Shown in pieces: positions 9,497 through 20,741 of a stretch of 64,000 nt of DNA. Numbering within the stretch: the first letter of the stretch is position 1; each line of letters begins with the position of its first letter. Under the pieces are notes generated by a model. It worked only from the letters and a program-made list of their open reading frames with translations, did no database searches and had not been told where the DNA came from. A program made the translations under genes and the position numbers. Origin of the DNA: Bacteroidota bacterium (lineage in GTDB: Bacteria; Bacteroidota; Bacteroidia; B-17B0; Aurantibacillaceae); contig CAUJCR010000006.1 of assembly GCA_963169355.1 (NCBI GenBank), positions 124,001-188,000 on the forward strand. Reading direction: 5' to 3'.

Positions 9497-11344
9497 TTAT
9501 TCAACTGTTACGCTCTTGGCTAAGTTTCTTGGTTGATCAACATTACAACCACGCATAACCGCAATGTGGTAAGATAATAATTGTAATGGCACCACCGAAA
9601 CTAATGGCACTAACGACTCGTCGGTTTCTGGAATTTCAATAACATGTTCGGCCATTTTTTTCACATCCGTATCACCAGCTGTTACAATAGCAATAATTTT
9701 ACCTTTTCGGGCTTTTACTTCTTGTATATTGCTTACTACTTTTTCGTAGTTAGGTCCTTTAGTTGCAATTACAAATACAGGCATTGCCTCATCAATTAAT
9801 GCAATAGGGCCGTGTTTCATTTCTGCTGCAGGATAACCCTCAGCATGTATGTATGAAATTTCTTTTAGTTTTAATGCACCCTCTAAAGCCACTGGAAAAG
9901 AGTAACCTCTACCTAAATACAAAGCATTGCTGGCATCTTTATATTCCGCAGCTATTTTTTTAATAGCATCATTTAATTTTAAAACTTCTTCAACTTTAGC
10001 AGGAATAGATTCAATCTCATAAAGTAATTGACGATACTTGCTCTCTGCCATTGTTCCTCTCACTTTAGCAATATGTAAAGCCATTAATGTAAGCACAGTT
10101 ACTTGAGCAGTAAAGGCTTTTGTAGAAGCAACACCTATTTCGGGGCCTGCATGGGTATAAGAACCAGCGTGGGTGGCGCGTGCAATGGATGAACCTACAA
10201 CATTACACACTCCAAAGATAGTAGCACCCTTAGATTTTGCTAATTCAATAGCCGCTAATGTGTCAGCGGTTTCGCCACTTTGTGAAATGGCAATAACAAT
10301 ATCGTCTGAATAAATAATAGGGTTGCGGTATCTAAACTCGGATGCGTATTCTACTTCAACGGGTATGCGAGCATATTCTTCAAATAAATACTCAGCAACC
10401 ATGCCAGCATGCCACGATGTACCGCAAGCAATAATTAAAATACGTTTAATGTTTTTAAATTTCCCTTCATGCTCTTCAATTCCCCCCATCTTTAAATGAC
10501 CAGTTTCGGAGTTCAAACGACCACGCATACTGTCGAAGATAGAACGAGGTTGTTCGTATATCTCCTTCAACATAAAATGGTCGTATCCACCTTTTTCAAT
10601 GGCTTCTAATTCCATTTCTAATTGTTGAACATAAGGAGTAATTTCTTTATCTCTGATGGTTCTAATTTTCAGCTCATCATTTCTTCTAATAATGGCTACA
10701 TGTTCGTCTTCTATATACACCACATTTTTAGTGTACTCAACAATTGGCGAAGCATCGGAAGCAATAAAAAATTCATCTTTTCCAACACCAATAACCATCG
10801 GACTTCCTTTTTTAGCCGCAATCAATGTGTTAGGGTCATTCTTATCTAAGATTACAATGGCATAAGCTCCACTTACTTGTTTAAGGGCGCCCATAACAGC
10901 GTGACTAAGTTTAAGTGTAGGTTCGTTTTTGCGAATATCCTCAATTAAATGGATTAAAACTTCTGTATCTGTTTCTGATAAAAAAGTATGACCACGTTTT
11001 TGTAATCCTTCTTTTATAGAAGCATAGTTCTCAATAATCCCGTTATGAATGATGACTAAATCTTTTGTTTGAGAATAGTGCGGATGAGAATTAACATCAT
11101 TCGGTTCACCATGAGTTGCCCAGCGGGTATGCCCTATACCGATATTGCCAGCTCTGTCTTTTGATTTACTATAATCTAATAAGTCAGAAACTTTCCCTTT
11201 CTTTTTATAAACATTTAAAGCGCCCTCTGGAGAAATTAGAGCAATACCTGCGCTATCATAACCTCTGTATTCTAGGCGTTGAAGTCCTTTTATAAGAATT
11301 GGAAACGCATCACGGTTCCCTATATATCCAACAATTCCACACAT
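9497..11344 (-). CDS. glmS: glutamine-fructose-6-phosphate aminotransferase (isomerizing)
   Basis: 615 residues, full length. It converts fructose-6-P and glutamine to glucosamine-6-P and glutamate, the entry step to UDP-GlcNAc for peptidoglycan and LPS. The N-terminal glutaminase begins MCGIVGYIG with nucleophile Cys2 after Met removal. GHTRWATHG and HNGIIENY are the glutamine-site motifs. Two SIS sugar-isomerase domains follow (~290-420 with GTSWHAG and SQSGETADTL; ~460-605 with GRGYSFPVALEGALKLKEISY), ending DQPRNLAKSVTVE. A weak -7-like TATATTAG lies at 11370-11377 on the minus strand. No ribozyme-like leader is visible. The three genes downstream follow with a 3-base gap or overlaps. Confidence 0.97.
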   Translation of the reverse strand: MCGIVGYIGNRDAFPILIKGLQRLEYRGYDSAGIALISPEGALNVYKKKGKVSDLLDYSKSKDRAGNIGIGHTRWATHGEPNDVNSHPHYSQTKDLVIIHNGIIENYASIKEGLQKRGHTFLSETDTEVLIHLIEDIRKNEPTLKLSHAVMGALKQVSGAYAIVILDKNDPNTLIAAKKGSPMVIGVGKDEFFIASDASPIVEYTKNVVYIEDEHVAIIRRNDELKIRTIRDKEITPYVQQLEMELEAIEKGGYDHFMLKEIYEQPRSIFDSMRGRLNSETGHLKMGGIEEHEGKFKNIKRILIIACGTSWHAGMVAEYLFEEYARIPVEVEYASEFRYRNPIIYSDDIVIAISQSGETADTLAAIELAKSKGATIFGVCNVVGSSIARATHAGSYTHAGPEIGVASTKAFTAQVTVLTLMALHIAKVRGTMAESKYRQLLYEIESIPAKVEEVLKLNDAIKKIAAEYKDASNALYLGRGYSFPVALEGALKLKEISYIHAEGYPAAEMKHGPIALIDEAMPVFVIATKGPNYEKVVSNIQEVKARKGKIIAIVTAGDTDVKKMAEHVIEIPETDESLVPLVSVVPLQLLSYHIAVMRGCNVDQPRNLAKSVTVE

Positions 11345-11457
11345 AAAAATCTAATTAAAATATAACAAGCTAATATACGACTTTTTTAAATATTTATTGT
11401 AACAATTTAAAAGTGTATGGATAGATAAAATCTGACAATAATTTAAAGAAAGTACGA

Positions 11458-12888
11458 TTAAGAAATGTAGCTTAATTTAAGCATATTGGTACGCCCTTTC
11501 TCTTTCATTGGCATACTTGCTAAATTAATTACTAGGTCATCGGCTTTTACAAAACCAGCCTTTTTTATGTATTCTTTTAAGTCGGCAATGGTTTGGTCGG
11601 TACTTTCATATTTATCATAATAAAAACCTCTTACGCCCCATACTAAACTTAGTGCATTAAGTAAGCTTTTGTTATCAGTAAATATAAATACGTTAGCTTT
11701 TGGACGATGGCTACTTAGTTCAAAAGCTGTGTAACCAGAGTTGGTAATGGAAATGATAGCTTTTGCTCCAGCTTGTTTCGACATGATACAAGCGTTATAA
11801 CAAATACTATCTGCTATATAGGTTACTGTTTTTAGTTCAGGTTCATGTTCTCTATGATAAATAGAGCCGCTATCTTCTATTTGTGTGATAATGCGTTTCA
11901 TGTATTCAATCACTTTTACAGGATAACGTCCTACAGAGGTTTCGGCACTTAACATAACGGCATCGGCGCCATCTAACACAGCATTAGCCACATCGTTTAC
12001 TTCGGCACGGGTAGGAGTATAGGCTGTAATCATACTTTCCATCATTTGCGTAGCAATAATTACAGGCTTAGAGGCTTGCATACATTTTTGCACTATCATC
12101 TTTTGTAGGAGTGGTACTTTCTCCATTGGTAACTCTACTCCTAGATCTCCTCTTGCTACCATAATACCATCGGCTAAATCTATAATGTTATCTATTTCTT
12201 TAATAGCTTCGGGCTTTTCAATTTTGGCAACTACTCTACTATTTTTCTTTTTAGAACGGATAATTTCTTTAAGTTCTACAATATCAGTGGCACTTCTTAC
12301 AAAGGATAAACCTATCCATTCAAAATCATTTTCTAGAGCAAAGTCTAAATCACGTAAATCTTTTAAGGTAAGACAAGGCAAAGAAATTTTAGTATTTGGT
12401 AAGTTCACCCCTTTTTTAGAAGAAAGTGTACCACCCGCAATAATAACACAACGAACCTCTTCTTTTCTGTCAGATTCTATTACTTTTAAAGTTATTTTCC
12501 CATCATCTATTAGCACATGCTCGTTAGGCGTAACATCTTGAGGAAATTGCGGATAAGTGATAAATAAACGTTCGGCAGTTCCTTCGCATTCTTTAGTTGT
12601 AATAATTATTTCTTGTCCATTAACAAGTTCAACGGCGTTATCTTTTACTTTACCAATGCGTAATTTGGGTCCTTGTAAATCACCTAAAATACCCACATGG
12701 CGATTTAATTTTTTATTTAATGTTCTGATATTATCTACTACATGTTTAATGGCTTCATAATCGCCATGCGAAAAGTTAATACGACAAATATCTAACCCCG
12801 CATTAAATAGTTGTTCAAGTACTGCAATGTTTTCGGTAGATGGCCCCATGGTAGCCACAATTTTAGTTCTATTATAGTTCGTATTCAT
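11458..12888 (-). CDS. pyk: pyruvate kinase
   Basis: 476 residues, full-length bacterial PK. It converts phosphoenolpyruvate + ADP to pyruvate + ATP, the last step of glycolysis. Substrate and ATP residues are in RINFSHG (R36, N38, S40, H41). K222 and E224 are in AKIEKPE and D248 in VARGDLGVE (catalytic Lys and metal ligands). NVILDGADAVMLSAETSVGRYPV-type sequence follows (seen here as NAVLDGADAVMLSAETS). The C-terminal domain is complete (~340-476). The start is preceded by a real GGAGGT, rare among the genes here. It is divergent from the KASIII operon; glmS lies 113 bases downstream on the same strand. Confidence 0.97.
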   Translation of the reverse strand: MNTNYNRTKIVATMGPSTENIAVLEQLFNAGLDICRINFSHGDYEAIKHVVDNIRTLNKKLNRHVGILGDLQGPKLRIGKVKDNAVELVNGQEIIITTKECEGTAERLFITYPQFPQDVTPNEHVLIDDGKITLKVIESDRKEEVRCVIIAGGTLSSKKGVNLPNTKISLPCLTLKDLRDLDFALENDFEWIGLSFVRSATDIVELKEIIRSKKKNSRVVAKIEKPEAIKEIDNIIDLADGIMVARGDLGVELPMEKVPLLQKMIVQKCMQASKPVIIATQMMESMITAYTPTRAEVNDVANAVLDGADAVMLSAETSVGRYPVKVIEYMKRIITQIEDSGSIYHREHEPELKTVTYIADSICYNACIMSKQAGAKAIISITNSGYTAFELSSHRPKANVFIFTDNKSLLNALSLVWGVRGFYYDKYESTDQTIADLKEYIKKAGFVKADDLVINLASMPMKEKGRTNMLKLSYIS

Positions 12889-13056: not shown

Positions 13057-14034
13057 ATGGCCATTTCAATAGATAACATTTCGGTTTATTTACCTAAGAA
13101 ACAAAGAACCAATGAAGAGTTGGCTACTGAATTTAGTAAAAGTGCCGAACAGATATTTAAAAACACAGGCATAAAAACACGTTATGTGTCTGCCGAAGGT
13201 GAATTAGCCTCGGATATGGCCGTGAAAGCTGCTGAAAAATTATTTACCGAACAACATATTGATAAAAACCATATTGATTTTTTAATCTTTTGCTCAGAAG
13301 GATTTGATTTCAAAGCTCCTGCAACATCGTGTATTATTCAAGAGCGGTTGGGATTAAAAAATGAAATTGGATGTATTGATCTTCCTTATGGTTGTTCGGG
13401 TTATATTTATGGATTGGGTATTGCAAACGGAATGATTGTAAGTGGGGTTGCACGTAGAGTGTTGTTTTTAACGGCAGATATGGCTACTACAGTAATTCAT
13501 AAAAATGATTTAGAATTAAAAAGTATTTTTAGCGATATTGCTACTGCTAGTTTAATATCTGGAAATGATAAAGCTCTACCGTTTGTTTTTGGAACAGATG
13601 GAAAAGGCCATCAAAATTTAATTGTAAGATATAGTTCCACCAGAGACTTAAATGCAGATTTCTTAAAATCGGAAACACTGCCTTATGGACACATGACCAT
13701 GAATAGTACGGAAGTTTTTTTATTTGCTGTAAAACGTGTACCAACACTCATACAATCTATTTTAGAACAACATAATACCACCATTGATGAGGTTGATTTG
13801 TTTATTTTTCATCAGGCTAGTTTCTTTATGTTGGATGTAGTGAGGCGAAAGTGTAAAATACCTAAAGAGAAATTTTTTGTAAATATTGAAGAATATGGCA
13901 ATTCGGTGTCTTCCACAATTCCTGTGGCCTTGTACGATGCTGAGAAGAAAGGCGTTTTAAAACGCGGCATGAAAGTGTTATTGGCGGGGTTTGGTATTGG
14001 ATACAGCTGGGGCGCAACTATTATTGATTATTAA
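13057..14034 (+). CDS. 3-oxoacyl-ACP synthase III-like ketosynthase (first of two)
   Basis: 325 residues, the length of FabH-type KASIII. The Cys-His-Asn triad is intact: C113 in LPYGCSGYIYGL, H252 in FIFHQAS and N282 in EYGNSVSSTIP. KASIII enzymes condense an acyl-CoA starter with malonyl-ACP. This is the first gene of a tightly packed operon with an ACP, a second KASIII, an SDR reductase, a GT2 glycosyltransferase and a GNAT. That context points to a dedicated short hydroxyacyl group, not general fatty-acid synthesis. It is divergent from pyk (168 bases). The primary fabH role cannot be excluded, but the neighbours make it less likely. Confidence 0.85.
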   Translation: MAISIDNISVYLPKKQRTNEELATEFSKSAEQIFKNTGIKTRYVSAEGELASDMAVKAAEKLFTEQHIDKNHIDFLIFCSEGFDFKAPATSCIIQERLGLKNEIGCIDLPYGCSGYIYGLGIANGMIVSGVARRVLFLTADMATTVIHKNDLELKSIFSDIATASLISGNDKALPFVFGTDGKGHQNLIVRYSSTRDLNADFLKSETLPYGHMTMNSTEVFLFAVKRVPTLIQSILEQHNTTIDEVDLFIFHQASFFMLDVVRRKCKIPKEKFFVNIEEYGNSVSSTIPVALYDAEKKGVLKRGMKVLLAGFGIGYSWGATIIDY

Positions 14035-14065
14035 AATTAAAAGTGTATTTTTATAAAAAAAGAGT

Positions 14066-14305
14066 ATGATATCATTAGATGAATTTACAAAACAATTAGC
14101 TGCAGAGTTTGAGGACGTAGATCCTAACACCATTACACCAAGTACTAATTATCGTGACATTAAGAATTGGAGTTCGATGTACGCGCTTATTGTTATTGCA
14201 TTTGTAGATGCTAATTTTGATGTGCAATTAAATGCAGATAACTTAAGAAACTCTCAAACCATTAAAGATATTTATGATATTGTGGTAGCTAAACAAGCAA
14301 ATTAA
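14066..14305 (+). CDS. acyl carrier protein (dedicated)
   Basis: 79 residues, acidic, with a four-helix ACP pattern. The prosthetic-group serine is S37 in NWSSMYAL; the common DSL is replaced by WSSM, a variant I associate with specialised ACPs of surface-polysaccharide clusters. The tail LRNSQTIKDIYDIV is the helix III/IV region typical of ACPs. It would carry the growing acyl chain as a 4'-phosphopantetheine thioester. The stop codon overlaps the next start (TAATG), so it is translationally coupled to the second KASIII. Confidence 0.85.
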   Translation: MISLDEFTKQLAAEFEDVDPNTITPSTNYRDIKNWSSMYALIVIAFVDANFDVQLNADNLRNSQTIKDIYDIVVAKQAN

Positions 14306-15360
14306 TGGCATTATTATCGGTTCAAAATATTTTAATAGAAGGTATTGCGGCTTGTGTTCCACAACAAAAGGAATACACCAACAATTATTCACTCTTTACC
14401 GAAGAAGAGAAAGAGTTGTTTGTAAAAAGTGTTGGTATTATTGAAAGACGTGTAGCACCATTTGAAATTACAACTTCAGATATGTGTTATCATGCTGCTG
14501 AAAAATTAATAGCAGATTTAAAATGGAATAAAGAAGATATTGGTTGTTTGATTTTTGTTTCTCAATCAACTGATTATTTGCTGCCTGCTACAAGTATTAT
14601 TTTGCAGCATCGCTTACAATTACCCAACACCACAATGGCTTTTGATGTAGGACTTGGCTGTTCGGGTTATGTATATGGGTTACAATTAATGGCCAGTTTG
14701 CTAACAAGTGGACAAATTAAAAAAGGATTATTATTAGTTGGCGATAAATCAACTTTATCTACCCATTTTGAAGATAAAAGCACTTATCCTTTATTTGGTG
14801 ATGCTGGTTGTGCAACAGCTATGGCGTATGATTCAACCGCTACGCCAATATACTTTAATTCGCAAAGCGATGGCGCAGGCGAAGATGCCATTAAAATATT
14901 AGATGGTGCTGCTAGAAATACGGTGAGAGATGATACGTTTGATATTATAGAAGTTGAACCTGGGGTAAAACGCAGCAGAAGACATTTAGCATTAAAAGGT
15001 ATTGATATTTTTAATTTTGCATTAAAAGAAGTAACGCCTAATGTTCATGAGCTACTAAAATTTGCAGCTATTGATAAAGAGCAGGTGAATTACTTTGTGT
15101 TTCATCAGGCCAACAGATTAATAAACGAAAGCGTAAGAAAAAAATTAAAAGTATTAGATATCTCAAAAGTACCATATTCTATTCAGCATTTTGGTAATAC
15201 AAGTTCTGCGTCTATCCCTCTTACAATGGTTACCCAATTAAAACAAAAATTGCAGGAGCAGAATACGCTTTTATTATCAGGCTTTGGAGTTGGTTATTCT
15301 TGGTCGTCTTGTGTTTTTAATTCTAAATCTATCTATTGTTCAGACTTAATTGAAATATAA
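14305..15360 (+). CDS. 3-oxoacyl-ACP synthase III-like ketosynthase (second of two)
   Basis: 351 residues. The KASIII triad is complete: C119 in GLGCSGYVYGL, H267 in FVFHQANRL and N298 in HFGNTSSASIP. It is clearly diverged from the first KASIII of the operon (different N-terminus, longer central region), so this is not a recent duplication. Two ketosynthases serving one ACP and one ketoreductase suggest either two successive condensations or one condensation and one acyl-transfer role. KASIII-fold proteins can also work as acyltransferases, and this copy is a candidate for that. It overlaps the ACP stop by one base and is 3 bases before the SDR gene. Confidence 0.85.
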   Translation: MALLSVQNILIEGIAACVPQQKEYTNNYSLFTEEEKELFVKSVGIIERRVAPFEITTSDMCYHAAEKLIADLKWNKEDIGCLIFVSQSTDYLLPATSIILQHRLQLPNTTMAFDVGLGCSGYVYGLQLMASLLTSGQIKKGLLLVGDKSTLSTHFEDKSTYPLFGDAGCATAMAYDSTATPIYFNSQSDGAGEDAIKILDGAARNTVRDDTFDIIEVEPGVKRSRRHLALKGIDIFNFALKEVTPNVHELLKFAAIDKEQVNYFVFHQANRLINESVRKKLKVLDISKVPYSIQHFGNTSSASIPLTMVTQLKQKLQEQNTLLLSGFGVGYSWSSCVFNSKSIYCSDLIEI

Positions 15361-15363
15361 ACT

Positions 15364-16128
15364 ATGCAAGATTTTTTGCTAACAAATAAAACTATTTTAA
15401 TTACAGGAGCAAGCTCTGGTATTGGTAAAGCGGCTGCAATATTAGCTTCACAAATGGGAGCAAATGTTATTATTCATGGTCGAGATATTAACAAATTAAA
15501 CGACACATTTAGTCAATTAAATTCAACTGGAAAACATTTGTTATTACAAGCCGATTTAACTAAACAAGAGGATATTTATAATTTAGTAAGCCAATGTCCT
15601 AACGTAGATGGCATTGTGCATTGTGCAGGAATTGTAAAACCTGTACCTGCTAAGTTTATTCAACAGAAACATATAGATGAGATGTTTTCTATTAATTACA
15701 ATGCAGTGGTGTTAATTAACTCTCGTTTACTACAATTAAAAAAGATAAATGATAAAGCCTCTATTGTTTTAATTTCTACAATTAGTACACAGCATAGTTA
15801 TTTTGGAGGCGCTTTATACATTAGCTCCAAAGGAGCTCTTGAAACCTATGCACGAGCTTTAGGATTAGAAACCGTTGCAAAAGGAATAAGAGTAAATACA
15901 TTATCACCCGCTATGGTACATACCGAGATTTATGAAAACACTTTAAAGACAGTATTAAATCCAGCTCATGCTGATAAGTATGTGAGCACCTATCCTTTGG
16001 GTATAGGTGAACCAATAGATGTTGCAAATAGTATTGTGTTTTTATTATCTAATGCCTCAAAATGGATTACAGGCACTGTTATTAAAATGGATGGAGGATT
16101 AACCCTTGGATATCAAAAAATTGAGTAA
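15364..16128 (+). CDS. SDR-family oxidoreductase, probable 3-oxoacyl-ACP reductase
   Basis: 254 residues, classical short-chain dehydrogenase. The cofactor loop is TGASSGIG (G15, G19, G21), HGRD near 38-41 suggests NADP(H), and the catalytic set is S138/T139 with YISSK (Y152, K156). The C-terminus (SKWITGTVIKMDGGLTLG) is FabG-like. Next to two ketosynthases and an ACP, it most likely reduces the beta-keto group to a 3-hydroxyacyl-ACP. No dehydratase or enoyl reductase gene is present in the cluster, so the product should keep its hydroxyl. It lies between genes 3 and 2 bases away. Confidence 0.88.
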   Translation: MQDFLLTNKTILITGASSGIGKAAAILASQMGANVIIHGRDINKLNDTFSQLNSTGKHLLLQADLTKQEDIYNLVSQCPNVDGIVHCAGIVKPVPAKFIQQKHIDEMFSINYNAVVLINSRLLQLKKINDKASIVLISTISTQHSYFGGALYISSKGALETYARALGLETVAKGIRVNTLSPAMVHTEIYENTLKTVLNPAHADKYVSTYPLGIGEPIDVANSIVFLLSNASKWITGTVIKMDGGLTLGYQKIE

Positions 16129-16130
16129 TA

Positions 16131-17042
16131 ATGAAAGAGCTTTCGGTTTTAATACCCGTATATAACTCAGCTTCTTGTATAGAACAAACTATACACAAAA
16201 CTATTGAGGCACTCAAGCAGCTCAATATTTCCTATGAGTTAATTTTAATAGATGATGCTAGCGAAGATAATTCGTGGCAGATTATTAAACAATTAAAACA
16301 AACAAATGAGCATGTTTTAGGCATAAAATTTAGTAAAAATTACGGGCAACATAACGCCTTATTATGCGGATTAAAATTAGCTACGGGTAATTTTATTGTA
16401 ACAATGGATGATGATTTAGAGCAAAATCCTGAGGATATATCGTTACTTTATAATACGATTAAACAAAATGATTATGATTTGGTTTATGGTTCGCCAGTCA
16501 ATATCAAAAAAGGATTTGTTAGAAGAATTGCAACTCGAATTTATAAGAAAATATCTCAAGTTGAAAACAAAAGAGCAGGCGAAGGAAGCCCTTTTAGAAT
16601 TATTAATAAAACTTTAAAAGATAATTTATTATTACATGATAGTTCTTTATTTTTTATAGATGAAATAGCCTTGTGGTACACCGACAAAATTGGATATGAA
16701 CCAGTAAAGTTTTTACCATCAGCTAAGAGAGGTTCAAGATATAGTTTTGGTAGCTTGTTTACATTATCATTACGTGTGCTCTCACTTAGTTCTACCATGC
16801 CATTGCGTTTTGTAAGAGTATTAGGGATTTATATGTCTGTTACAAGTATTATTTTAGCCTTATATTTTATTTTACGTAAGCTAATTTTTCAAGTGCCATC
16901 AGGTTTTACAGCCATAATTGTAGCGGTATTATTAAGTGCGGGTATTATTACTTTTAGTTTAGGTGTTATTGGCGAATATTTAGGCAACTTAATTTCGTTA
17001 TCAAACAAAAAACCTTCATATCACATTAAAGAAAAAATATGA
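16131..17042 (+). CDS. GT2 glycosyltransferase, polyprenyl-phosphate type, with C-terminal TM segments
   Basis: 303 residues. The GT-A domain (1-~215) begins SVLIPVYNSA, has LIDDASEDNS (D41, D42) and the metal-binding MDDDLEQNP (92-100). Two strong transmembrane segments follow (~225-255 and ~262-292), then a short basic tail. This plan matches DPM1/ArnC/GtrB-like enzymes that transfer a sugar from a nucleotide to undecaprenyl phosphate on the cytoplasmic face. It ends in an ATGA overlap with the GNAT gene. Donor sugar and acceptor are not readable. Its place suggests that it handles the sugar that receives, or already carries, the acyl group made by the upstream genes. Confidence 0.85.
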   Translation: MKELSVLIPVYNSASCIEQTIHKTIEALKQLNISYELILIDDASEDNSWQIIKQLKQTNEHVLGIKFSKNYGQHNALLCGLKLATGNFIVTMDDDLEQNPEDISLLYNTIKQNDYDLVYGSPVNIKKGFVRRIATRIYKKISQVENKRAGEGSPFRIINKTLKDNLLLHDSSLFFIDEIALWYTDKIGYEPVKFLPSAKRGSRYSFGSLFTLSLRVLSLSSTMPLRFVRVLGIYMSVTSIILALYFILRKLIFQVPSGFTAIIVAVLLSAGIITFSLGVIGEYLGNLISLSNKKPSYHIKEKI

Positions 17043-17665
17043 TTGTACAGCAATACGGATTAACTTATACACGCATCACTGCTGATGACATTGAGTTAGT
17101 TAGGTATTGGCGAAACCAAGAATTTATTAGAAACACCATGCAGTTTAAAGAGTACATTACACCTCTTATGCAGCAACAATGGTTTAATAATATAGATAAT
17201 AAGTATAATTATTATTTCATAATTTATTTTCAAAATAAAAAAATTGGCTTAATAAACTGTAAAGATTCTACAAAAGAAAAAGTAGCTGAAGGTGGTATAT
17301 TTATTTGGGATAAAAGCTTTTGGGGAACTTCGGTGCCTGCATTCGCCTCGTTGGCTATGCTGCAAGCGGTGTTTGACGAATTTCAATCGGGCGAAGCCTC
17401 TATTGCAACAATTTCAAAAGAGAATACTTTGGCCTTAGATTTTAATTTAAAATTAGGGTATCAGATTATTGGTGAGACAGATGATAAGCAATGCTATAAA
17501 TTATATTTAACCAAAAAAGATTACGATACTAAAACCAAAAAATTAATTAGAGCTGCTGCTATTATGACTGGACAACCTCATTTTAAATTGTGGGCAAGTG
17601 TAAGCGATAAACAATCTGATGAAATTAATGCCTACATTGTAAAGCACCAAATTACTCCTGCTTAG
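17039..17665 (+). CDS. GNAT-family acyltransferase, RimL/PseH-like
   Basis: 208 residues. The first ~160 form a GNAT domain of the Acetyltransf_3 type: RYWRNQEFIRNTM, IGLINCKDS, then ISKENTLALDFNLKLGYQIIGE. This subfamily includes sugar N-acyltransferases such as PseH as well as ribosomal-protein acetylases. The last ~45 residues (KKLIRAAAIMTGQPHFKLW) are an unusual extension. The 4-base overlap with the GT2 gene and the ACP/KASIII genes upstream suggest that it moves an acyl group, perhaps from the dedicated ACP, onto an amino sugar. The 3' end overlaps the convergent dioxygenase gene by 14 bases. Confidence 0.75.
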   Translation: MIVQQYGLTYTRITADDIELVRYWRNQEFIRNTMQFKEYITPLMQQQWFNNIDNKYNYYFIIYFQNKKIGLINCKDSTKEKVAEGGIFIWDKSFWGTSVPAFASLAMLQAVFDEFQSGEASIATISKENTLALDFNLKLGYQIIGETDDKQCYKLYLTKKDYDTKTKKLIRAAAIMTGQPHFKLWASVSDKQSDEINAYIVKHQITPA

Positions 17666-18332
17666 CTGGAAAGATATCAAATTCTCCTTTTTCCAAAAAT
17701 TCGAGCCATCTTTCTTTAGGCATCATGCTTAACATAAACTCATCCCTCAAAGTTTCAATCTTATAACGTCCAATTTCTTTAGCACTATATTCCCATCTTG
17801 GGTTCGCAATATCCAACATCAGTACAAATCTATCTTCCTCACTATCATTCCAGGCTTCATGTTCAAATGAGTCATCAAAAATCAACATTTTTCCTTCCTG
17901 CCAAGTTTTAGTCTCTTCTCCAACTCTAATGAAACAATTAGGAGGCACCACTAGTCCCAAGTGTGCTCTTAAAACCATTTTAGTAAATCCTTTGTGAGGT
18001 AATATTTTAGTTTTAGCTGGTAAATAAGAAAAATCTGCTGAAACTAAACTAGGAATTTGTTTTAATACTTCATAGGTCTTAGGGCATAAACTACAATTTA
18101 AGGGATGCTTGATACCAAAAAATTGAAAAGTAAATACTTTCCAAATGTTTTTACTATTAGGGTGTAAGTAACTTGGAAAAGTATTTAGCCAATAACCATT
18201 TTCGGAATTTTTACGCAGATGATTTAGCTCTTCTAAAATAACAGTATAGTTATCCTCTAAAACTTTTAATTCAGGCGTTTCGTTGATATTATAAAACCAT
18301 TTCGGGTTTTTTTCAGTAAATTCATCTTGCAT
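17652..18332 (-). CDS. aspartyl/asparaginyl beta-hydroxylase-family 2-oxoglutarate dioxygenase
   Basis: 226 residues, PF05118-type Fe(II)/2OG dioxygenase. Fe ligands and the 2OG arginine are visible: H113 in LPHKGF, R122/H124 in LRAHLGL, H158 in FDDSFEHEAWN and R168 in DRFVLML. The family covers peptidyl Asp/Asn hydroxylases and also lipid hydroxylases (LpxO on lipid A, OlsC/OlsD on ornithine lipids). With no protein substrate obvious here, a lipid or small-molecule hydroxylase is as likely. It is soluble, without a membrane segment, unlike LpxO. Divergent from a sulfotransferase gene (127 bases between starts) and convergent with the GNAT (14-base overlap). Confidence 0.85.
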   Translation of the reverse strand: MQDEFTEKNPKWFYNINETPELKVLEDNYTVILEELNHLRKNSENGYWLNTFPSYLHPNSKNIWKVFTFQFFGIKHPLNCSLCPKTYEVLKQIPSLVSADFSYLPAKTKILPHKGFTKMVLRAHLGLVVPPNCFIRVGEETKTWQEGKMLIFDDSFEHEAWNDSEEDRFVLMLDIANPRWEYSAKEIGRYKIETLRDEFMLSMMPKERWLEFLEKGEFDIFPAKQE

Positions 18333-18396: not shown

Positions 18397-18459
18397 TAAT
18401 GATATATGTCATAATCATTTTAAGATTTTGGAAAATGTTATACCTTGTATTTTAATTTT

Positions 18460-19545
18460 ATGAAAGACTGGAGCCGAGAACGAATTAACGCACTAAAGAT
18501 ACATTTTATTTTTTGTATGGAACGTACAGGAAGTTCAATGTTAACATCTATGCTAAATAGAAATGAGCATATTTTATCAAGTTCCGAAGAGCCATTTGTG
18601 CTTTATCTTTACAAGAAATACAAAGACAAAAAAACATACACAAAAGCGGAGATAGATACGTTAGTGGAAGAGTTTTGGTTAACATCCGAAAGAATGTTGG
18701 TGTTTTATTATGAATCAAAAGAGAATTTAAAACAACTACTTTACACTTTTTTACCAAACTTAGATTACCGTTTTTTATGCAAAGTATTATATCTTAATTT
18801 TATTCCATTAAAGAGCAAAGATAAGGTAGAGGTTATTGTAGATAAACAAATGAAATACATGTATTATATTGAGGTAATACGTGAAATATTTCCAGATGCT
18901 AAAATTCTTTTTCTTGTAAGGAATCCTAAAGGAGTTGTTACGAGTTGGCGTAAACGAAAATGGGGATTAAATCAAACCGCAGCGTATTTAGCTACACTTT
19001 ATAAATTTAATTATACGTTTGCTAAAAGGGCATTTGAGTCGAAGGTTCCAAATATAGATTTGTTGCGGTACGAAGATCTGGTGTCGAACCCTGCAAAAGA
19101 ACTTGAGCGCATCTGTAAGTTTTATCAAGTGCCTTTTAATATTGAGATGGTAGAGCATCACACAGCCTACAATGCCTATGTAAATAAAATGGAAGAATAT
19201 GTAGATGATGATAGAATAAAACACGTGCGTAAATTTCAAGGTAACACCTTAAAACCAGTAACTACCGAGTTGATTGATGAATGGCAGGGCGTACTTTCAA
19301 CTGATGAGATATGTACCATTGATAAGATTAACGAAAAATTAAATCAATTTTTTAATTATACTTCGCATATAGGTAATTATAAATTTACCTTTAGTAATCG
19401 GAAAAATATGATTCTAGGCTCGGTTGAAAAGGGCTGGTATCACATTGCGTACATCAATTCGCCACTATGGGTAAAGGTATTAATCAAGAAAATAAAATAT
19501 GACATTTTTAAAGGAAAGAAACGTTGGGAGAAGAATAATGCTTAA
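18460..19545 (+). CDS. sulfotransferase-family protein (first of a convergent pair)
   Basis: 361 residues from ATG 18460; a TTG 15 bases upstream is in frame but less likely. The PAPS 5'-phosphosulfate loop is FIFCMERTGSSMLTSML (about 16-32), followed by SSEEPFVLYL. The 3'-phosphate motif is ILFLVRNPKGVVTSWRKRKWG. RYEDLVSNPAKELERICKF is the usual later helix. It would move sulfate from PAPS to a hydroxyl or amine of a carbohydrate, lipid or small molecule. There is no signal peptide, so it acts in the cytoplasm. It overlaps the convergent paralogue by 4 bases at the stop codons. The acceptor is unknown. Confidence 0.82.
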   Translation: MKDWSRERINALKIHFIFCMERTGSSMLTSMLNRNEHILSSSEEPFVLYLYKKYKDKKTYTKAEIDTLVEEFWLTSERMLVFYYESKENLKQLLYTFLPNLDYRFLCKVLYLNFIPLKSKDKVEVIVDKQMKYMYYIEVIREIFPDAKILFLVRNPKGVVTSWRKRKWGLNQTAAYLATLYKFNYTFAKRAFESKVPNIDLLRYEDLVSNPAKELERICKFYQVPFNIEMVEHHTAYNAYVNKMEEYVDDDRIKHVRKFQGNTLKPVTTELIDEWQGVLSTDEICTIDKINEKLNQFFNYTSHIGNYKFTFSNRKNMILGSVEKGWYHIAYINSPLWVKVLIKKIKYDIFKGKKRWEKNNA

Positions 19546-20666
19546 TTGTTTATTGCGTGAACTTTAGTATTTACTTTCTCAAAATGATTGGTTAGAGCGT
19601 ATGTTGTTTCTTTTACCCTTTTACTATAAAGGGTTTTTCTAATTCGATACCTAACAAAATAAGGTAATAAATGATACGCCTTAGTGTATAAATGAATAAT
19701 AAAAAGGAACTTTAAGAACTCCAGTATCATTTTAGGTTTAAAATAAAATGTAGCCGTACATGCTTCGCGCTGATAATTTAATTGTTGCGCTGTTTTTTGG
19801 CACATATACCAAATTAAATTTTTATCCTCAACACTTAATTCTTTTTGCCAAATCCCAACTTTATCCGTACTTACTTTTTGACCTAACCCAGCGTGAAAAC
19901 CCTCTAAATGAGATATTGTTTTAGGGTTTAGCGTCTCTTTACCAGAAGAAAGTCGTTCATTAAAAGTTGAATCGTAATTCAACATATTAGAGTTGTAAGT
20001 TAAAGATAAAAACTGCGTAATGCGACTTAATGTTTTTTCGGGTTCGGATACTAAATCTTCGTATTTTACGATAATATATCTTTTCGAATCTATTCTTGCT
20101 AATTTTTTTAGCAAGGAGGCGTATTCATAATCCCAAATCTTAGATAAAAGATAATAAGTTCTTTTTTGGTTTTTCTTTAAATCTCTTTTTCGTTTTACTA
20201 AAGCATTATCTCTTGGATCTCTTGTTAATACAATAAACTTAGCCTGCGGATAATACTGGCTTAATTGTTTAACAATAAAATGAGATTTTAGTTCTTTATC
20301 TACAATGGTATTAACTTGCGATTTATCCTTAAAGGGCATAAATGCTAAATAACTCAATTTGATAGCCAATTCCCCAGTAAGAAAAGCTTGATGCTCTTTA
20401 AGAATTTGATATAAATCGTCTTTCTTACCAAATTGTGGTTCTAGTTTTCCGGCGCTAAACAGAAAGAAATCAAAACAATATTCACGAATCGTTTGGTCTG
20501 TCCAATTTGTTTTGTTTTTATATTTCGGAAATAAATTATAGGCGAATGGTTCTTCGGAAGTTGAAATAATATTGGGATGCATATTAAGCATGGTGCTTAA
20601 TAAAGTGCTACCTGTTCTACCAGTTGATAGAATAAAGTTTAAAGAAAGTGAATTGGGTTGGGACAT
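19542..20666 (-). CDS. sulfotransferase-family protein (second of a convergent pair)
   Basis: 374 residues from ATG at 20666; an in-frame TTG at 20687 is weaker. It shares with its neighbour the PAPS loop (FILSTGRTGSTLLSTMLN), the unusual STSEEPFAYNL that follows it, a KYKNKTNWT segment, the 3'-phosphate motif VLTRDPRDNALVKRKRD and VKYEDLVSEPEKTLSRI. The two are paralogues despite the inverted arrangement. The C-terminus has a long basic, hydrophobic region (FLKFLFIIHLYTKAYHLL) that may sit on the membrane surface. It follows acs on the same strand after 75 bases. Acceptor unknown. Confidence 0.82.
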   Translation of the reverse strand: MSQPNSLSLNFILSTGRTGSTLLSTMLNMHPNIISTSEEPFAYNLFPKYKNKTNWTDQTIREYCFDFFLFSAGKLEPQFGKKDDLYQILKEHQAFLTGELAIKLSYLAFMPFKDKSQVNTIVDKELKSHFIVKQLSQYYPQAKFIVLTRDPRDNALVKRKRDLKKNQKRTYYLLSKIWDYEYASLLKKLARIDSKRYIIVKYEDLVSEPEKTLSRITQFLSLTYNSNMLNYDSTFNERLSSGKETLNPKTISHLEGFHAGLGQKVSTDKVGIWQKELSVEDKNLIWYMCQKTAQQLNYQREACTATFYFKPKMILEFLKFLFIIHLYTKAYHLLPYFVRYRIRKTLYSKRVKETTYALTNHFEKVNTKVHAINN

Positions 20667-20741
20667 TTGTTGCTTATATGCAAGCAAATGTAATTACTAA
20701 ACGCATTTAAAATTATTTTACAATAATCTTACAATATTTTT

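Follow-up and report, generated by a model that had tools for sequence, protein, structure and literature searches.

Organization of the operon

The window, a 64,000-nucleotide stretch from the draft genome of a Bacteroidota bacterium (3.2 Mb, 61 contigs), contains an operon of six plus-strand open reading frames at positions 13057–17665. The gaps between consecutive frames are 31, −1, 3, 2, and −4 bases, and a re-check of the frames reproduced exactly the six genes and five gaps of the initial annotation. The genes of the operon, followed by its downstream neighbours, are:

13057..14034, + strand: KASIII-A, beta-ketoacyl-ACP synthase III-like, with complete Cys/His/Asn and without the CoA-binding Trp/Arg of FabH
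14066..14305, + strand: ACP, 79 aa, with the phosphopantetheine Ser in a WSSM motif
14305..15360, + strand: KASIII-B, a second ketosynthase III-like enzyme, with complete Cys/His/Asn
15364..16128, + strand: SDR ketoreductase, with TGASSGIG and YISSK motifs read from the sequence
16131..17042, + strand: GT2, an ArnC/GtrB-like polyprenyl-phosphate glycosyltransferase with two C-terminal transmembrane segments
17039..17665, + strand: GNAT, a predicted sugar N-acyltransferase with an FdhC/PseH-like fold
17652..18332, − strand: 2OG-Fe hydroxylase (Asp_Arg_Hydrox, LpxO/OlsC-like), a convergent and conserved neighbour, probable tailoring enzyme
18445..19545, + strand: sulfotransferase (Sulfotransfer_3), a recurring neighbour, probable tailoring enzyme
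19542..20687, − strand: second sulfotransferase (Sulfotransfer_3), a recurring neighbour

The six proteins of the operon match the Pfam families ACP_syn_III (twice), PP-binding_2, adh_short_C2, Glycos_transf_2, and Acetyltransf_3, and taken together Pfam and NCBIfam bear out the KASIII identity of two of them and the assignment of the others as ACP, SDR, GT2, and GNAT. The operon encodes neither a dehydratase nor an enoyl reductase, in agreement with the initial annotation. Scans for promoters and terminators performed no better than chance level. Just upstream, on the minus strand (9497–12888), are glmS-like and pyruvate-kinase-like genes, an arrangement otherwise seen only in a close relative (L052) whose KASIII-B is 95% identical.

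Ketosynthases and acyl carrier protein

Both ketosynthases had been described as triad-complete, and the catalytic Cys, His, and Asn are indeed present in KASIII-A, KASIII-B, and all aligned relatives except fragments. The CoA-binding residues of FabH, W32 and R36 in the numbering of the E. coli enzyme, are replaced in the alignment by Q and N in KASIII-A and by L and S in KASIII-B. The loss of these residues hints at the use of acyl-ACP rather than ordinary acyl-CoA primers. Against the fabH model TIGR00747 (cut-off 292.1 bits), the two enzymes score 228.6 and 196.4 bits, and KASIII-A barely exceeds the NCBIfam cut-off for a generic beta-ketoacyl-ACP synthase 3. A separate canonical FabH containing both CoA-binding residues adjoins a plsX-like gene on contig C30 of the same genome, and KASIII-A and KASIII-B are therefore not needed for bulk fatty-acid initiation. 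We rejected this housekeeping role for them on the basis of the TIGR00747 scores, the absent Trp and Arg, and the FabH encoded elsewhere.

In a quick tree, KASIII-A and KASIII-B form two groups, each spanning GNAT and LbH-type architectures, and both ketosynthases of the operon group with those from LbH-type amino-sugar loci in Flavobacterium. The chain-building half of the operon has orthologous cassettes in that genus, located next to amino-sugar genes.

The ACP scores 24.7 bits against PP-binding_2, which is under the Pfam cut-off of 32. Its WSSM position reads WDSM, WNSM, or WTSM in relatives, and the conserved serine is thus assigned as the phosphopantetheine attachment site, as originally proposed. 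The genome has one ACPS-type PPTase match.

Glycosyltransferase and N-acyltransferase

The GT2 protein matches ArnC (E 1.4e-37) and sll0501 over its full length and has two hydrophobic segments at its C-terminus. This combination of a GT2 domain and two C-terminal transmembrane segments is that of polyprenyl-phosphate glycosyltransferases, and bears out the earlier description of a membrane-anchored enzyme of this type. An ArnC-like GT2 implies, from sequence similarity, a polyprenyl-phosphate-linked sugar. The score against the ArnC equivalog PRK10714 is 147.3 bits, far below the cut-off of 529, and the sugar may therefore differ from that of ArnC.

The best profile match of the GNAT is FdhC (E 1e-14), followed by PseH. 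Its predicted structure (pLDDT 92) aligns to PseH with a Z-score of 19.0 and to FdhC with a Z-score of 18.6 (170 residues, rmsd 2.5). Spermidine acetyltransferases are equally close in the fold search, and aminoglycoside acetyltransferases are also near; the assignment to sugar N-acyltransferases combines the GNAT fold, for which other GNATs score similarly, with the best sequence-profile similarity. The score against the PseH equivalog TIGR03585 is 46.4 bits (cut-off 93.1). The protein is probably a nucleotide-sugar N-acyltransferase of the FdhC/PseH-like kind. The gene linkage suggests that the ACP of the operon may be its acyl donor.

Conservation and co-occurrence in the bacterial family

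Within the bacterial family to which the window belongs, 39 of 87 genomes contain a KASIII-B match with an E-value of 1e-60 or lower. Of the 32 family loci that hold the GNAT, 22 show the strict order KASIII-ACP-KASIII-SDR-GT2-GNAT with comparably close spacing, and so the six-gene arrangement is beyond chance. Several of the remaining loci are truncated at contig ends, contain insertions, or have ORFs missed in gene calling; six represent a reduced variant. The reduced version, observed in family genomes (L042, L044, L047, L048, and L049), has a single ketosynthase together with GT2, GNAT, and a small ACP-like ORF; it lacks the SDR and adjoins a GT-C/TPR gene. In another locus (L062:10826-12986), ORFs that by eye resemble cupin/JmjC-type dioxygenases are located between KASIII-A and the ACP.

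The GNAT is present in 38 of the 39 ketosynthase-bearing genomes and in 2 of the 48 genomes that lack the ketosynthase (87 genomes; Fisher p 4e-21, calculated over related genomes that are not independent). Five genomes (G002, G043, G044, G045, and G046) carry the GNAT away from the cassette; the GNAT still adjoins its GT2 in the first four, and in G046 it is alone on its short contig. This co-occurrence, including the five genomes with separated genes, argues more strongly than any other result that the acyl-building genes and the GNAT act in one pathway.

Neighbouring GT-C/TPR protein and probable tailoring enzymes

A membrane protein of about 650 aa with C-terminal TPR repeats is encoded in 24 of the 32 loci, mostly divergently from the operon. 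In the genome studied here it is found away from the operon, on contig C28, and is 47% identical to the protein of a relative. On that contig (L088:182-12734), two tandem GT-C/TPR genes are near sprA and a ruvA-like gene and are followed by a gene for a choice-of-anchor L protein. In the predicted structure (pLDDT 88), residues 2–433, approximately, align to the yeast oligosaccharyltransferase STT3 (Z 19.9, 331 residues, rmsd 4.4) and to Pmt4 (Z 18.1, 346 residues, rmsd 4.5), and the C-terminus resembles TPR proteins. Because of these alignments, the protein is a probable GT-C glycosyltransferase, the TPR domain of which would be periplasmic, judging from the superposition on STT3.

Asp_Arg_Hydrox proteins are encoded in 25 and sulfotransferases in 15 of the 32 loci; these enzymes probably tailor the product. 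A few of the loci carry MBOAT, Acyl_transf_3, or carbamoyltransferase genes. In 15 of 50 cases, GT-C genes had type IX cargo genes nearby, which gives a hint of enrichment that is circular, as the search seeds were drawn from such neighbours.

Candidate sources of the amino sugar

No aminotransferase or dehydratase gene is located near the operon in the family. WecE is present in 27 of 40 genomes with the GNAT and in 15 of 47 without it (p 0.001), an association that disappears when genus g3 is set aside (p 0.47). WecE was therefore rejected as the specific supplier of the amino sugar and kept as a candidate. The distribution of a second aminotransferase (L086) does not follow that of the GNAT, and a PseC/ArnB-like aminotransferase (L079), found in 78 of 87 genomes, is nearly universal and thus uninformative. 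One cassette-bearing genome, 85% complete, has no DegT match at E 1e-30. The amino sugar could be supplied by WecE, by the near-universal PseC/ArnB-like enzyme, or by another.

Outside the family, the cassette and a GNAT occur together with amino-sugar genes in three loci. That of Mucilaginibacter (L129) has two FdtA-like genes and one FdtB-like gene, named by eye, and its GNAT is weakly similar to that of the operon (34 bits). The locus of an Alcanivoracaceae MAG (L134) contains WecE (514 bits, cut-off 375), and that of F. fluviatile (L174) a DegT aminotransferase under the WecE cut-off. Synteny with amino-sugar genes, which the initial annotation suggested looking for, exists in these loci and in the LbH-type loci of Flavobacterium, but no such gene adjoins the operon.

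Proposed pathway and alternatives

We propose, with a probability of about 72%, that the operon builds a short hydroxyacyl group on its own ACP, places it on an amino sugar, and loads this sugar onto a membrane lipid for use at the cell surface. The genes, catalytic residues, synteny, co-occurrence, and orthology are seen directly, and the folds are predicted. In the first step, KASIII-A would condense an acetyl unit with ACP-bound malonyl, and the SDR would reduce the resulting 3-oxo group. KASIII-B would then catalyse one more extension, followed by a second reduction by the SDR. Because the operon has no dehydratase, the chain would stay hydroxylated, most likely as 3,5-dihydroxyhexanoyl-ACP, or as 3-hydroxybutyryl if only one cycle takes place. 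The GNAT would acylate a nucleotide-linked amino sugar at its amino group, and the ArnC-like GT2 would load the product onto polyprenyl phosphate. Once this has been flipped, the GT-C/TPR glycosyltransferase, the gene of which is beside the operon in relatives and on another contig here, could deliver the sugar to a periplasmic acceptor. The most likely product is an amino sugar that is linked to polyprenyl phosphate and bears an amide of the 3,5-dihydroxyhexanoyl type; we infer its chain length and sugar, as well as the lipid carrier, the order of the steps, and the final acceptor. The setting of GT2 and GT-C genes is more suggestive of a polyprenyl-phosphate sugar than of the sugar that initiates an O-antigen. 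Of the minimal polyketide-like pathway for a surface sugar or glycolipid suggested initially, the polyketide-like cassette is supported by its match to the wfp genes discussed below. Unlike in the wfp set, the acyltransferase is a GNAT instead of a PglD-type enzyme and no amino-sugar gene adjoins the operon.

The main competing possibility, which we consider clearly less probable, is that only one cycle is useful, so that a C4 3-hydroxybutyryl group is delivered and the second ketosynthase serves for priming or for another starter. The 3-hydroxy-1-oxobutyl group of Pseudomonas viosamine is attributed to one KASIII, an ACP, and a ketoreductase (PMC3927599), and FdhC carries 3-hydroxybutanoyl. 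However, both ketosynthases retain full triads throughout and belong to separate clades, and the two-KASIII set of F. psychrophilum goes with a C6 dihydroxy chain (PMC6519341). We prefer 3,5-dihydroxyhexanoyl because one ketosynthase goes with C4 and two with C6 in these two cases.

It is unlikely that the acyl group is placed on a lipid or polyamine instead of an amino sugar, for example to give a membrane lipid with a hydroxyacyl group, akin to ornithine lipids and tailored by the LpxO/OlsC-like hydroxylases. The conserved OlsC/LpxO-like neighbours and the high rank of SpeG-type GNATs in the fold search would fit such a product, but the GT2 and GNAT genes stay adjacent even away from the cassette, the best profile matches of the GNAT are FdhC and PseH, and amino-sugar genes accompany the cassette and GNAT in L129, L134, and L174. 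Least probable is a function of the ketosynthases in bulk fatty-acid initiation or another acyl pathway, with the sugar genes as mere neighbours: the score of KASIII-A just over the generic synthase cut-off is outweighed by the canonical FabH elsewhere in the genome, by the TIGR00747 scores and lost CoA-binding residues of both enzymes, and by their near-perfect co-occurrence with the GNAT.

If the proposed route to a lipid-linked acylated amino sugar is right, many aquatic Bacteroidota make this compound in an undescribed way, and the targets of the GT-C/TPR enzyme could be surface proteins. A version of the genes is present in a named strain, Flavobacterium fluviatile TAPY14 (L174). A more speculative and rather doubtful extension is a widespread, undescribed protein-glycosylation pathway of Bacteroidota, in which a polyketide-like N-acyl amino sugar on polyprenyl phosphate is transferred by the enzyme with GT-C and periplasmic TPR domains to surface proteins that are exported, for instance as type IX secretion cargo, and then hydroxylated, sulfated, or O-acetylated. 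A limited literature search found no paper on the combination of GT-C, TPR, and sulfotransferase, and a study of the F. psychrophilum glycosyltransferase fpgA (PMC4293000) provided no usable link to the operon.

Comparison with known systems

The wider comparison comprised 80 named loci, of which roughly 25 encode this GNAT and roughly 26 an acyltransferase of the NeuD/PglB/VioB type; these two sets show no clear overlap. The latter group, for example L166 and L144 of Flavobacterium, includes PglC-, PglE-, and PglF-like genes, labelled by sequence similarity and reading by eye, and looks like the wfp type. In four other Flavobacterium loci (L115, L116, L120, and L140), the cassette contains, next to the SDR and KASIII-A, a gene for a protein of about 361 aa that by eye is Rieske-oxygenase-like.

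In F. psychrophilum, the ketosynthases wfpC and wfpE, the ACP wfpD, the reductase wfpF, and the acyltransferase wfpG were proposed by Cisar et al. (2019) for the 3,5-dihydroxyhexanoyl group on Qui2NAc4N (PMC6519341). The initial annotation had pointed to a dihydroxyhexanamido sugar from this species, and both the wfp set and the grouping of the ketosynthases with Flavobacterium amino-sugar loci support the parallel. Like wfpCDEFG, the operon combines two KASIII enzymes, an ACP, and a ketoreductase with a subsequent acyltransferase. That of the wfp locus is a PglD-type left-handed beta-helix enzyme, whereas the operon has a GNAT. Furthermore, the wfp genes belong to an O-antigen locus that also contains pglE, pglF, and a gene for a PglC-like transferase, whereas the operon has an ArnC-like GT2 and no adjoining amino-sugar genes; its neighbours are glmS- and pyruvate-kinase-like genes, a hydroxylase, and sulfotransferases.

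The viosamine island of P. syringae, vioS-acp-vioR-vioB, also encodes a KASIII, an ACP, and a ketoreductase, to which the N-(3-hydroxy-1-oxobutyl) group of Pseudomonas viosamine is attributed, and flagellin lacks the modified viosamine when vioR is lost (PMC3927599). The hydroxyacyl group there goes to a 4-amino sugar, and the one proposed here would likewise go to an amino sugar, but the island has one ketosynthase, a C4 chain, VioB in place of a GNAT, and flagellin as the acceptor. The GNAT of the operon shares its predicted fold with FdhC (PDB: 5KTA, 5KTC), the structure of which contains the product 3-[(R)-3-hydroxybutanoylamino]-3,6-dideoxy-D-galactose named in the title of 5KTC. The two proteins are about 21% identical, and FdhC was solved with CoA, whereas the operon encodes its own ACP. 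The GT2 has the GT2 domain and two C-terminal membrane segments of the GtrB-type enzymes ArnC and sll0501.

Hydroxyacyl-making cassettes are thus portable modules, used in different sugar pathways through a PglD-type enzyme or a GNAT. The chain-building half of the operon is of a known type, but its combination with transfer genes of this kind across aquatic Bacteroidota appears to be undescribed. The difference lies at the outlet: a GNAT in place of the PglD-type acyltransferase, an ArnC-like GT2, and, in relatives, the GT-C/TPR protein together with 2OG hydroxylases and sulfotransferases.
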